A stretch of DNA of 54,593 bases from an uncultured Candidatus Poseidoniales archaeon (GTDB taxonomy: Archaea > Thermoplasmatota > Poseidoniia > Poseidoniales > Poseidoniaceae), in the NCBI GenBank assembly GCA_905182125.1, contig CAJJAV010000005.1, forward strand, positions 1 to 54,593, given 5' to 3'. The translations under genes and the position numbers were made by a program. The notes under the pieces were generated by a model. It was not told where the DNA came from, searched no databases, and was given only the letters and a program-made list of their open reading frames with translations. Shown one piece after another: positions 32,266-35,097 of this stretch. Position 1 is the stretch's first letter, and every line of letters begins with the position of its first letter.

Positions 32266-33126
32266 TCAGCCGCCGATCACGAGTGCGCGAACTCGGAGTT
32301 GTGCGAAGCGATCTGGGAAATGGCCCAATGCAAACGCAATGAGTTCAGCAAGATGGACGATTGGCATTGAGGTGTCCTTTCCACTTACCTTTCCTGCTTT
32401 GGACTGATACGAATCAAGGTTGGAGTGGGAGATTGTGCAAGCGCTCACCATCATGTCTGCTCCGCTGCTTTTGGCATCGGCCAAAACAGAGGCGGTCATC
32501 TTCATCACTGGCTTTTGGATGGTCAACAAAGCAGGTGCACCGACGCTCTGGCACTTTGAGTCATAATCGACGGGTGTGCCACCAAGGGCCATGATCAGCT
32601 GTTCGAGGTACGACGGCATGAAGGGGTCGTCTCCGGCAGTTGCACCTTGACGTTGCATGTTTGGCCCATAGTAAGGGGCGACATTCAATCGAATAGGATT
32701 AATGACGGCATCTCGAATTTTATCGAGTCCGACTTCTTCGACCAGCAAATGCAACAAATGGCGTGGTTGTGATTCTCCTTGGTATTCGATGCCCGTGGTT
32801 CGAGCGATGAGGTTGTTGATGGTGTTTGCAAAGCCTACGTCGGACGCAAATTCATCGACGGTGTCGCACATGATTCCGTAACTTGTGGCGCAGGTGGTCA
32901 TGACATCAACGCCTTTGGTTTCGGCGAGGGCAAGGTTGCGAGCAACCAAAGCATGTTGCAATTTAGGAGAAGATTGCTTGATGATGTTGCCTCCATCGCT
33001 GGATGCTTTTGGGATTTCAATCAATTGGATCCCAAGGGTTTTGCACAGTGGTTGAAGGCAGTCCTCGACTTCTGAAGAGGCAGCCCGAGCGGTGTTTCCG
33101 GGGTAGTATGCAACTTTCAAAGCCAT
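32266..33126 (-). CDS. HdrB-like protein lacking most cluster cysteines
   Basis: A 286-residue protein aligning by eye over its whole length with HdrB/CCG-domain subunits of heterodisulfide reductase and thiol:fumarate reductase. It has the opening YYPG-x-T, VARNLALAE, HLLHLLVEEVG, NVAPYYG and ALGGTPVDY. The CCG cysteines that bind the two noncubane [4Fe-4S] clusters are largely replaced. PGC becomes PGN (Asn11), CCG becomes SDGG, CxxC becomes C79-x-x-Ser, YYGC becomes YYGP, the second CC becomes CQ, and the last CxxC becomes C230-x-x-Ser. It follows the ferredoxin-flavodoxin fusion by 10 bp with a TGAGGTG stop/SD, so the two are co-expressed. The fold is likely kept without clusters; the function is unknown. 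Confidence 0.8.
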   Translation of the reverse strand: MALKVAYYPGNTARAASSEVEDCLQPLCKTLGIQLIEIPKASSDGGNIIKQSSPKLQHALVARNLALAETKGVDVMTTCATSYGIMCDTVDEFASDVGFANTINNLIARTTGIEYQGESQPRHLLHLLVEEVGLDKIRDAVINPIRLNVAPYYGPNMQRQGATAGDDPFMPSYLEQLIMALGGTPVDYDSKCQSVGAPALLTIQKPVMKMTASVLADAKSSGADMMVSACTISHSNLDSYQSKAGKVSGKDTSMPIVHLAELIAFALGHFPDRFAQLRVRALVIGG

Positions 33127-33135
33127 AGAAACACC

Positions 33136-35097
33136 TCAGAACCTCTGGTCGATTTCGTTGAACAAGCTGATCACTTCATGATGCGCTTCGATCTTTCTGT
33201 TGATCATGTTCGGAATCTTTCCGACACCTGCTGGAGGGGCGACAAGAGCCTGTAGGCTTCGAATTGGAGGGGCCCCGGTTCGTGTGAATCCGAGGAACAT
33301 ACGGGCAGATACACCGTCAAAGATGTTGCTGATCAGTCCGACAGGTCCGAGAACTTGGCGGTAGAGAGTGGTTTCATTGACGTTGCCGCTCCACTTGACA
33401 CTGCGCCCATACCACTTGACGAGACGTCCATGTGGGCCAGTGTAGTTGGTGGCGTTGAGCAAGTGACTTCGTGCCGCATTCAGGGCTTTAGAAGCGGTGC
33501 GACCTTCAGAACCGTACCGGGCAATGGATGCCATGTCTGCTTCTGACCAGAGGCCATGTTCTGCATCCAACAACCCCGCAAGGGCGACTTTCTGTGCATC
33601 GCCAGTCCGAGGATCAAGGGTTCGAGTCCAATGCTGAAGAAGCACGCCAGGACCCTTGTATGATTCATCGAAGGGAACGGTGTCTGACATTGCATGGAGC
33701 AATTGGTAGGACGTTATGTCGGTCATGGCGTGAAGGGTTGAGGCGGTTTCAGAATCCATGGTACCCATGGCACTTCCATTGATCAGCGTTGCACCCTCAC
33801 GCGGATCTGCTCGCAGCCAAGGCTTGCTTTGGCTACGGTTTGCTTCAAAGGTGGAATAGTCAACCATCAAATCACGAATGACTGGGTAACCTGGCAGTGG
33901 TTCAATCTTGAGTTCGCCGCTTTCACCAACCAAGTCGCTGATGCAAGCCATGTCGGCTAACACCACTCGACCATTGACGCGCACGCCGCTCGTTGGGGAC
34001 CCGTTTCCATTTCCGCGTCGGAAGGAGAAGCTGCCGTCAACATCTTGTTGAATGGCTGTGAGGAGATCTTCGAGTGTTGCATGACCTGGAACAGCACAAG
34101 CGATTGTGTCCCATCCCGATTCATTGGCAGTGGGGCAGTATCTGAACAAAGAGAGCGTAATGGAAAGGTCTGCTTGGACGACCATACCCGGTGCGAAGTC
34201 CCCGTCATCAACTTCCTCTGAAGTTCCAGAGCCATAGGTGATCATCTCGTCGAGGAGAACTTCTTGGAGGGTTCCAGATTCGTCAACACAAGCGAGCATT
34301 GGAAGCGCTTGAGAGACCCATTGAGCCCAAGGTGTGTCGAAGTCAACATCGCAGAGTTGGATGTCTTGGACACGCTTTGCGCCGAGTTCGACATACTTGT
34401 CATCCCAGTCGGTTCCTGCTTTGCAGAATTCATCATAAGATGAATCGCCGATTGCACAGATGCTGAAGTGGACATTCGAGAGCGAAGGTTTTCCGCTGCT
34501 TACGGTGTTCCACAGCGTCTCTGCATTGTCTGGCATTTCGCCTTCGCCCCATGTCGAGGTGATGATCAGGGTGCGGGCATGGGCATTGAGTTTCCCTGCA
34601 TCGAACCCGTCCATGTCATACACGGTTGGAACCAATCCGTAGTTTGCTGCCATTTTGGCCGTCTTCTCTGCTAAACCGGCAGCGTTACCAGTTTGTGAAC
34701 CAAAGAGGATAGCAAGGCTTCTGTCGCCACCCATCAAGGCTTGGAAGGCATCGCTGCCTCCGGTTGCAACAGCCGCAGCCGGTGGTGCTTCAACTGCAGC
34801 AACAACAGGTGCTGCCGCTTCAATAGGTGCCACGCCGGCGTCACCGACCAGTTCGAATTTGATGACTTCGACAGGGCATGCTTCTGCTGCTTCGAGGATC
34901 ATTTCACCGTATTCAGCGCCGAATGTTCCAGAGAGAAGTGAACCGGCTGTGTTCCGGTCAAATTGCCCATCAGTCCTGACAGCTGCTAAGATTTGGGACG
35001 TCTCGTCGGTGATTTCAAACACCTCCGGACAGATGTCTTGACATGCATCACAGGTGATGCAATCTTCATCAATCCACACCTTTGCCACGATGGTCAT
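33136..35097 (-). CDS. Ferredoxin-flavodoxin-SdhB-like fusion protein
   Basis: A 653-residue multidomain protein. Residues 5-85 are a [4Fe-4S] ferredoxin (Cys13, 16, 19, 23 and 74). An Ala/Pro linker follows. Residues about 127-270 are a flavodoxin with the FMN loop LFGSQTGNA and the later loops STWGEGEMPDN and IGDSSYDEF. Residues about 308-415 match the N-terminal 2Fe-2S domain of SdhB/TfrB (SFRR, VNGRVVLA, then IEPLPGYPVIRDLMVD), but the cysteines of the usual C-x4-C-x2-C loop are gone (RGNGNGSPTSG). Residues about 460-550 resemble the SdhB C-terminal helical domain (YKGPGVLLQHWTRTLDPRTG), again without its cysteine clusters. Electron transfer through the ferredoxin and FMN is plausible; the rest looks like a scaffold. 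Confidence 0.82.
   Translation of the reverse strand: MTIVAKVWIDEDCITCDACQDICPEVFEITDETSQILAAVRTDGQFDRNTAGSLLSGTFGAEYGEMILEAAEACPVEVIKFELVGDAGVAPIEAAAPVVAAVEAPPAAAVATGGSDAFQALMGGDRSLAILFGSQTGNAAGLAEKTAKMAANYGLVPTVYDMDGFDAGKLNAHARTLIITSTWGEGEMPDNAETLWNTVSSGKPSLSNVHFSICAIGDSSYDEFCKAGTDWDDKYVELGAKRVQDIQLCDVDFDTPWAQWVSQALPMLACVDESGTLQEVLLDEMITYGSGTSEEVDDGDFAPGMVVQADLSITLSLFRYCPTANESGWDTIACAVPGHATLEDLLTAIQQDVDGSFSFRRGNGNGSPTSGVRVNGRVVLADMACISDLVGESGELKIEPLPGYPVIRDLMVDYSTFEANRSQSKPWLRADPREGATLINGSAMGTMDSETASTLHAMTDITSYQLLHAMSDTVPFDESYKGPGVLLQHWTRTLDPRTGDAQKVALAGLLDAEHGLWSEADMASIARYGSEGRTASKALNAARSHLLNATNYTGPHGRLVKWYGRSVKWSGNVNETTLYRQVLGPVGLISNIFDGVSARMFLGFTRTGAPPIRSLQALVAPPAGVGKIPNMINRKIEAHHEVISLFNEIDQRF

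Follow-up and report, generated by a model that had tools for sequence, protein, structure and literature searches.

An SdhB homologue without iron-sulfur ligands, fused to exchangeable ferredoxin and flavodoxin domains, as a probable carrier dock in Candidatus Poseidoniales

What use does a cell have for an iron-sulfur subunit of complex II that has lost its iron-sulfur ligands and bears two other redox modules at its N-terminus? This question is raised by a contig of an uncultured Candidatus Poseidoniales archaeon (GenBank assembly GCA_905182125.1, contig CAJJAV010000005.1, positions 1 to 54,593), and this whole stretch of 54,593 nucleotides is referred to here as the window. One of its genes encodes a protein (P0001) in which a ferredoxin and a flavodoxin precede a homologue of SdhB, the iron-sulfur subunit of succinate dehydrogenase (SDH), and the adjoining gene encodes a protein (P0002) related to HdrB and SdhE. 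A published account ranks Poseidoniales first in abundance among the archaea of ocean surface waters and describes them as having no cultured members (PMC6461757). Our analysis leads us to favor, with moderate confidence, the explanation that the pair makes up a pseudo-complex II devoid of clusters, retained as a dock to which low-potential carriers are tethered, in which the ferredoxin has repeatedly been swapped for a flavodoxin, sparing iron.

A reading made from the letters and predicted frames, without database searches (the sequence-only reading), had proposed a ferredoxin-flavodoxin-SdhB fusion at 33136-35097, and Pfam, NCBIfam and Foldseek agree on it (Table 1). All Pfam domains of P0001 score above their gathering thresholds, namely Fer4_13 (residues 9-80, 41.8 bits), Flavodoxin_1 (residues 130-256, 96.6 bits), and Fer2_3 (residues 315-417, 42.6 bits against a cut-off of 27). 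The profile and structure comparisons that this reading had suggested both point to SdhB. In addition to Fer2_3, the NCBIfam SdhB models align up to residue 547, with scores below their cut-offs (PRK05950, 68.1 bits; dhsB, 59 bits), and the homology continues to the C-terminus, including a tail that aligns with that of the E-type SdhBs of genomes G310 and G396. In a Foldseek search of the P0001 model against the PDB, each of the top ten matches comes from an SDH or fumarate reductase entry, the matched chains being assigned to SdhB by chain letter and length, and further down such chains are mixed with flavin mononucleotide (FMN) domains of P450 reductase and nitric oxide synthase.

The two modules in front have kept their cofactor-binding residues. 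The four ferredoxin ligands are invariant across 27 aligned rows, and the four-cysteine pattern is present in 90 of 96 ferredoxin domains, the other six having either a shorter loop with four cysteines (4) or containing X (2). The flavodoxin has the FMN P-loop and the second FMN-loop motif (STWGEGE.PDNA); the exact FMN-loop pattern is found in 134/148 second-slot and 32/41 first-slot flavodoxin domains, and the rest differ by E/D or similar exchanges. Its best profile and PDB matches are the FMN domains of CysJ and cytochrome P450 reductase. The cysJ model matches with its FMN part only, over residues 125-269, and its 124 bits fall short of the cut-off (668); no Pfam domain corresponding to the flavin adenine dinucleotide (FAD) and NADPH domains of CysJ was found in P0001.

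To assess the SdhB part, we aligned 154 distinct relatives with six cysteine-keeping SdhBs, five from outside the order and one being the canonical SdhB of the window genome. These six references have cysteine in 6/6 at eleven of 12 columns and in 5/6 at one. Among the relatives, cysteine occurs 0, 0, 3, and 0 times at the four 2Fe-2S columns (the second of which is a gap in 149/154), and 1, 1, 0, 0 and 0, 1, 0, 0 times at the columns of the two further cluster motifs. The family has the Fer2_3 and helical-domain framework of SdhB, with NCBIfam SdhB scores below the curated cut-offs, and lacks all three sets of cysteines (0-3/154 per column). It had been claimed from the sequence that the 2Fe-2S loop now reads RGNGNGSPTSG and that the cysteine clusters are gone from the C-terminal part as well, and the alignment bears out both. 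Two former ligand columns are occupied by Ser471 and Glu519, which are invariant in 154/154 relatives. The ratio of nonsynonymous to synonymous substitutions (dN/dS, NG86) is 0.004-0.064 in nine pairs for the SdhB part and 0.022-0.038 in the eight computable pairs for the HdrB-like partner, several dS values in these comparisons being above 1 (saturated). Values so far below 1 show that the scaffold is not decaying. As judged from the aligned ligand columns, the whole family has an SdhB part free of clusters, the fold of which is kept under strong selection. Profiles, fold, ligand columns, and selection all support the earlier idea of redox modules placed on a dead SdhB scaffold.

The partner is degenerate too, a feature that the sequence-only reading had missed. 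P0002 matches TIGR03288 (131.8 bits) and MFR SdhE (123.9 bits), both below cut-off, and its model (predicted local distance difference test score, pLDDT, of 86.5) has the CCG fold, with a Foldseek TM-score of up to 0.87 to HdrB (5odc_B). Six SdhEs from outside the order have cysteine in 6/6 at the columns equivalent to P0002 residues 11, 43, 44, 79, and 82 (site 1) and 155, 194, 195, 230, and 233 (site 2); neither site is intact in the window protein. Among 153 relatives, cysteine is absent from columns 155, 194, 195, and 233 of site 2 and present in 152 at column 230, the remaining row being a gap, and the site 1 counts are 10, 10, 62, 153, and 10 in column order. All five site 1 cysteines are thus kept in ten relatives, and the others read NSDCS (86), NSCCT (52), NSDCA (4), or NGDCA (1). 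Intact members occur in both families and the intact state requires two changes on the tree, so that each family probably underwent its own loss of site 1.

The persistence of C79 and C230 raises an alternative in which the scaffold still conducts, the two residues forming a redox dithiol in a disulfide reductase that depends on ferredoxin or flavodoxin and has no iron-sulfur clusters. Both are the first cysteine of the CxxC in their site and are nearly invariant, whereas cysteine is absent from four of the remaining eight ligand columns and occurs at the other four in 10-62 of 153 rows; moreover, HdrB itself reduces a disulfide. Nevertheless, reduction of a disulfide by ferredoxin or flavodoxin in the absence of iron-sulfur clusters would require a flavin at the site, and we regard this alternative as rather unlikely.

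The N-terminal head of the fusion is variable. Our analysis of the 154 distinct members identified 95 with a ferredoxin and a flavodoxin, 41 with two flavodoxins, 12 with one flavodoxin, one with a ferredoxin alone, and five cut at the 5' end. The ferredoxin-alone form (L183, genome G019) is the only member seen with a ferredoxin and without a flavodoxin, and there is no PF00258 match at all in its genome. On a tree of the SdhB-like and HdrB-like parts (146 rows, quick method), ferredoxin presence changes at least 25 times, and well-supported branches alone force 20 changes of the ferredoxin-flavodoxin state. In five of five hand-picked close pairs of unlike architecture, the DNA to either side of the head shares about 82-100% identity; over the N-terminal few hundred bases, identity falls to about 45-75% where ferredoxin is exchanged for flavodoxin (four pairs) and to 68-79% in the pair that lost a carrier, and rises again afterwards. 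A divergent head between near-identical flanks is the signature of head exchange by way of homologous flanks. On a quick tree that took in 27 of the 95 ferredoxin-flavodoxin members, flavodoxins of the first and second slots are largely separate (10 and 5 changes, not clean clades). We considered whether first-slot flavodoxins had arisen by local duplication each time and set this aside, since the separation fits exchange of an old cassette better.

Ferredoxin loss from the head is associated with additional flavodoxin genes. In a count covering 150 of the 193 genomes of the order, a PF00258 match outside the fusion was found in 41/51 genomes whose fusion has no ferredoxin and in 12/98 whose fusion has one. 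Over 16 phylogenetically independent pairs, the extra flavodoxin goes with ferredoxin loss in 12.8 and with the opposite in 0.0 on average (median p 0.00024). We read extra genes from ferredoxin-less genomes and from one genome whose fusion is unclassified (G173). Seven, all in ferredoxin-less genomes, are whole CysJ-like NADPH diflavin reductases of 606-652 amino acids (L244, L245, L247, L254, L256, L257, and L259); the one that was scanned scored 517 bits against CysJ, below the cut-off. Six loci encode short flavodoxins of 150-199 amino acids (L246, L248, L249, L251, L252, and L253), and in the ferredoxin-less closest relative (G012, L249:624-5501), the one locus scanned with Pfam, the short flavodoxin lies among genes of a FecCD-type iron ABC transporter (FecCD, Peripla_BP_2, and ABC_tran). 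Transporter-like neighbors of short flavodoxins were also seen by eye in several other ferredoxin-less genomes, and the G173 locus (L255) holds a diflavin reductase cut by the contig end.

As for possible electron donors, POR_N was found in 21/21 genomes. Fer4_13 exceeds its cut-off once per genome, inside the fusion, in 18/21, with two weak matches below cut-off elsewhere. Four genomes of the genus that were searched also encode other small ferredoxins, as Fer4_7 open reading frames (ORFs) of 80-136 amino acids and Fer2 ORFs of 106-139 amino acids; the notion that the fusion holds the only ferredoxin of the cell is not supported by them.

The link between head exchange and other flavodoxin genes could also be explained by a structural or regulatory protein whose ferredoxin and flavodoxin sense iron or redox state and carry no electrons. 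No DNA-binding or signaling domain appears in the Pfam matches or among the 25 of 38 NCBIfam matches listed, however, and conserved ferredoxin ligands and FMN loops suit a carrier, which makes a sensor unlikely. The architectures likewise bear on an obligatory internal relay, in which electrons would pass from the ferredoxin to the FMN of the flavodoxin or in the opposite direction, with the SdhB part doing no more than holding both. Flexible linkers (by pLDDT) would permit it, and the ferredoxin-flavodoxin form is the commonest (95/154), but the two-flavodoxin, flavodoxin-alone, and ferredoxin-alone forms share the same scaffold. Since each kind of carrier occurs alone on the same dock, an obligatory relay from ferredoxin to FMN is quite improbable.

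The origin of the scaffold is suggested by other lineages of the phylum, where SdhA, SdhB, and SdhE genes, the last with both sites intact, adjoin in four loci (L209, L210, L212, and L218); the highest score of an SdhE against the profile of the HdrB-like partner is 237.9 bits (L214). A profile of the SdhB-like part finds, at 1e-8, exactly one match in 80/81 genomes of the order searched and none in the six from the sister family within the class, and it also matches 36 other genomes of the phylum at 36-87 bits. The best explanation of these sequence matches is that an E-type (CCG) SDH was the source of both proteins, its SdhB giving rise to P0001 and its SdhE to P0002. The fusion was also considered as a substitute for a missing canonical SDH, and this was rejected: canonical SdhB scores above cut-off in 39/40 genomes, and the window genome has its own canonical SdhAB (SdhB 147.8 bits, SdhA adjoining). 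P0001 is not encoded with a catalytic SdhA, as no sdhA was found, reading by eye, beside its gene in the window or in 12 tabulated loci.

We did identify an orphan SdhA homologue (Table 1) that is nearly universal, with 175/193 genomes at E <1e-100; this count was made by eye with up to seven candidates scored per genome, other matches, with E of roughly 1e-42 to 1e-68 and presumed to be canonical SdhA or fragments, being excluded. It scores higher against one SdhA from outside the order (G216, 192 bits; others 147, 146, 134, and 112 bits) than against the canonical SdhA of its own genome (130 bits). The flavinylation His, the RGEGG Arg, the HYxMGG His, and the HGANR Arg are all present in seven compared SdhAs and missing in 19/19 orphan homologues; the FHPT His is kept in 10/19 and the first Gly of the FAD motif in 19/19. 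These positions are named after their roles in SdhA (flavinylation, active site, FAD motif). The orphan protein may represent a third subunit, as partner of the SdhB-like part. Two genomes of family f2 (G026, L236; G003, L231) have a second SdhA-like gene with intact active-site residues, near the canonical one in G026. The window genome further encodes, on contig C15 (L222:2854-4896, plus strand), an HdrD/GlpC-like protein of 680 amino acids with a hydrophobic N-terminal half and, by eye, intact iron-sulfur and CCG motifs, possibly a quinone-linked electron-transfer protein.

Homologues of SdhA, SdhB, and SdhE are therefore all present, and a still active SDH or fumarate reductase with an unusual electron path could be imagined. 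Such activity is very improbable, given the lost SdhB ligands, the four active-site residues missing from every orphan SdhA examined, and the canonical SDH in the same genome.

P0001 has matches in 185/193 genomes of the order, five of them weak (G131, G143, G149, G157, and G173; best E 1e-27 to 1e-46) and maybe fragments or other flavodoxins, and in 34/34 of the genomes at least 90% complete, from which it follows that the fusion protein is probably part of core metabolism. The gene pair lies between a thermosome ORF and a helicase ORF, both named by eye, in the 12 tabulated loci. Recurrence of the pair and of the cysteine loss, the check that the sequence-only reading had left for other genomes, was found through the order. 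The set retained for record titles, 80 of 270 relatives, is labeled Poseidoniales, Poseidoniaceae, Poseidonia, Euryarchaeota, or uncultured euryarchaeote; the one exception is L144, a fusion-bearing contig labeled Rhodobiaceae that is probably mis-binned. One member (G076) has an in-frame stop, with nothing similar in the window protein, and an assembly or sequencing error, frameshift, pseudogene, or local oddity is refuted by the same ligand loss in 154 distinct relatives from many assemblies and by the low dN/dS.

Table 1. Features of the fusion gene, its partner, and the orphan SdhA homologue
Feature	Coordinates	Strand	Basis
Ferredoxin-flavodoxin-SdhB-like fusion protein P0001, 653 amino acids	33136..35097	-	ORF; profile matches
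Single-cluster [4Fe-4S] ferredoxin domain, residues 1-85, ligands C13, C16, C19, C74	34843..35097	-	Pfam Fer4_13; invariant Cys
Flexible Ala/Pro/Glu-rich linker, residues 86-113	34759..34842	-	pLDDT <50
Flavodoxin (FMN) domain, CysJ/cytochrome P450 reductase-like, residues 122-275	34273..34734	-	Flavodoxin_1 (Pfam, 96.6 bits) and cysJ (NCBIfam, 124 bits); FMN-loop motifs shared with relatives
N-terminal (Fer2_3) domain of the SdhB part, lacking 2Fe-2S ligands, residues 312-417	33847..34164	-	Pfam Fer2_3 42.6 bits; ligand columns
Former 2Fe-2S ligand loop, residues 361-382 (RGNGNGSPTSG...VLAD)	33952..34017	-	Ligand-column alignment
C-terminal helical domain of the SdhB part, lacking cluster ligands, residues 440-547	33457..33780	-	Ligand columns; NCBIfam PRK05950 reaches residue 547
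C-terminal tail, residues 555-653, homologous to E-type SdhB tail	33139..33435	-	Alignment with G310/G396 SdhB
HdrB/SdhE-like partner P0002, 286 amino acids, 9 bases downstream of the P0001 gene, same strand	32266..33126	-	TIGR03288, MFR SdhE, Foldseek
First CCG domain of P0002, C79 being the only site 1 ligand left (others now N11, S43, D44, S82)	32767..33126	-	Cys-column alignment
Second CCG domain of P0002, C230 being the only site 2 ligand left (others now P155, S194, V195, S233)	32269..32694	-	Cys-column alignment
Orphan SdhA homologue, own genome	C26:10156-11739 (L221:3157-4776)	+ (L221)	TIGR01812 263.7 bits, cut-off 567.3

Taken together, we propose the following for the cluster-free dock. 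In the ancestor of Ca. Poseidoniales, an order that uses a separate canonical SDH, every cluster of SdhB and the second of the two SdhE clusters would have disappeared; the first SdhE site would have gone later, separately in the two families. The folds would have been retained as a non-conducting dock that supplies a place and no electron path, and one or two low-potential one-electron carriers ([4Fe-4S] ferredoxin, FMN flavodoxin) would have been fused N-terminally on flexible linkers. The tethered ferredoxin and/or FMN, presumably with cofactors bound, would be the redox-active part, and the dock probably positions interchangeable carriers at a fixed partner; as a single carrier of either kind occurs, that partner presumably accepts both. 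Docking on the HdrB-like protein, which the sequence-only reading had suggested, is plausible by analogy, because SdhB and SdhE genes adjoin in E-type SDH operons outside the order. Candidate electron donors are a 2-oxoacid:ferredoxin oxidoreductase (POR/KOR type) and, in ferredoxin-less lineages, the NADPH diflavin reductase, and the orphan SdhA flavoprotein is a candidate partner. Cassette exchange has repeatedly put flavodoxin in place of ferredoxin, and economy of iron is the most likely reason. The dead scaffold of the sequence-only reading is thus retained, while that reading had overlooked, apart from the state of the partner, the SdhA relic, the repeated head exchange, and the carriers that occur alone.

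Several points weigh against this proposal. Ten of the 51 ferredoxin-less genomes have no extra flavodoxin and 12 of the 98 ferredoxin-bearing ones have one, and iron is put forward as the driver from co-occurrence. Given the other small ferredoxins, the ferredoxin of the fusion need not be the acceptor of the oxidoreductase. The orphan SdhA gene lies on another contig (C26), unlinked to the fusion gene; site 1 is intact in 10/153 HdrB-like proteins, so the dock is not cluster-free everywhere; and the P0001 model is of moderate quality (pLDDT averages 68.7, spans 44-87 among blocks of the SdhB part, and is below 50 for residues 561-653).

A wider version, possible though on balance doubtful, is that a complete but catalytically dead E-type complex II, made of the SdhA, SdhB, and SdhE homologues, serves as a cluster-free carrier station. 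Its FAD subunit would have no dicarboxylate site, its metal-free core would bear exchangeable ferredoxin and flavodoxin, the C79/C230 pair would replace two non-cubane clusters, and ocean iron supply would drive the recombinational cassette exchange. On either account, a respiratory iron-sulfur module appears to have been stripped of its clusters stepwise with its fold still under strong selection, and the natural series of ferredoxin-to-flavodoxin replacements in one fixed scaffold makes the iron-sparing idea testable from metagenomes with iron data.

A Marine Group II gene pair annotated as SDH cytochrome b subunit and sulfite reductase flavoprotein appears in the accessible portion of Pereira et al. 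2019 (PMC6741140), and its gene order suggests that it corresponds to the P0001/P0002 pair; the domain architecture, ligand loss, and ferredoxin-flavodoxin exchange go unmentioned in that portion of the text. Our literature search, which was short on subscription papers and did not include preprints, found no description of the fusion. Among known systems, the E-type SdhBs of the phylum (L215/G310, L216/G396, and L218/G236) share the Fer2_3 core and the helical domain with P0001, and those of G310 and G396 also the tail; P0001 differs in its missing ligands, in the ferredoxin and flavodoxin fused in front, in having no linked sdhA, and in the presence of a canonical SDH elsewhere in its genome. 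P0002 resembles SdhE/HdrB (TIGR03288, MFR SdhE, PDB 5odc_B) in fold, length, and an adjoining SdhB homologue gene, whereas site 2 is lost in 153/153 and site 1 in 143/153 of its family, with C79 and C230 kept. Compared with CysJ and cytochrome P450 reductase, the FMN domain of P0001 is not followed by FAD and NADPH domains and is tethered instead to the SdhB-like part. Finally, TfrB of thiol:fumarate reductase combines the same two folds in one chain, and in L177 (G005) and L097, as assembled, the SdhB-like and HdrB-like parts likewise lie within one open frame, a TfrB-like layout. TfrB retains its clusters and, to our knowledge, bears no ferredoxin or flavodoxin head, whereas the Poseidoniales proteins have this head on a scaffold that has lost its cluster ligands.
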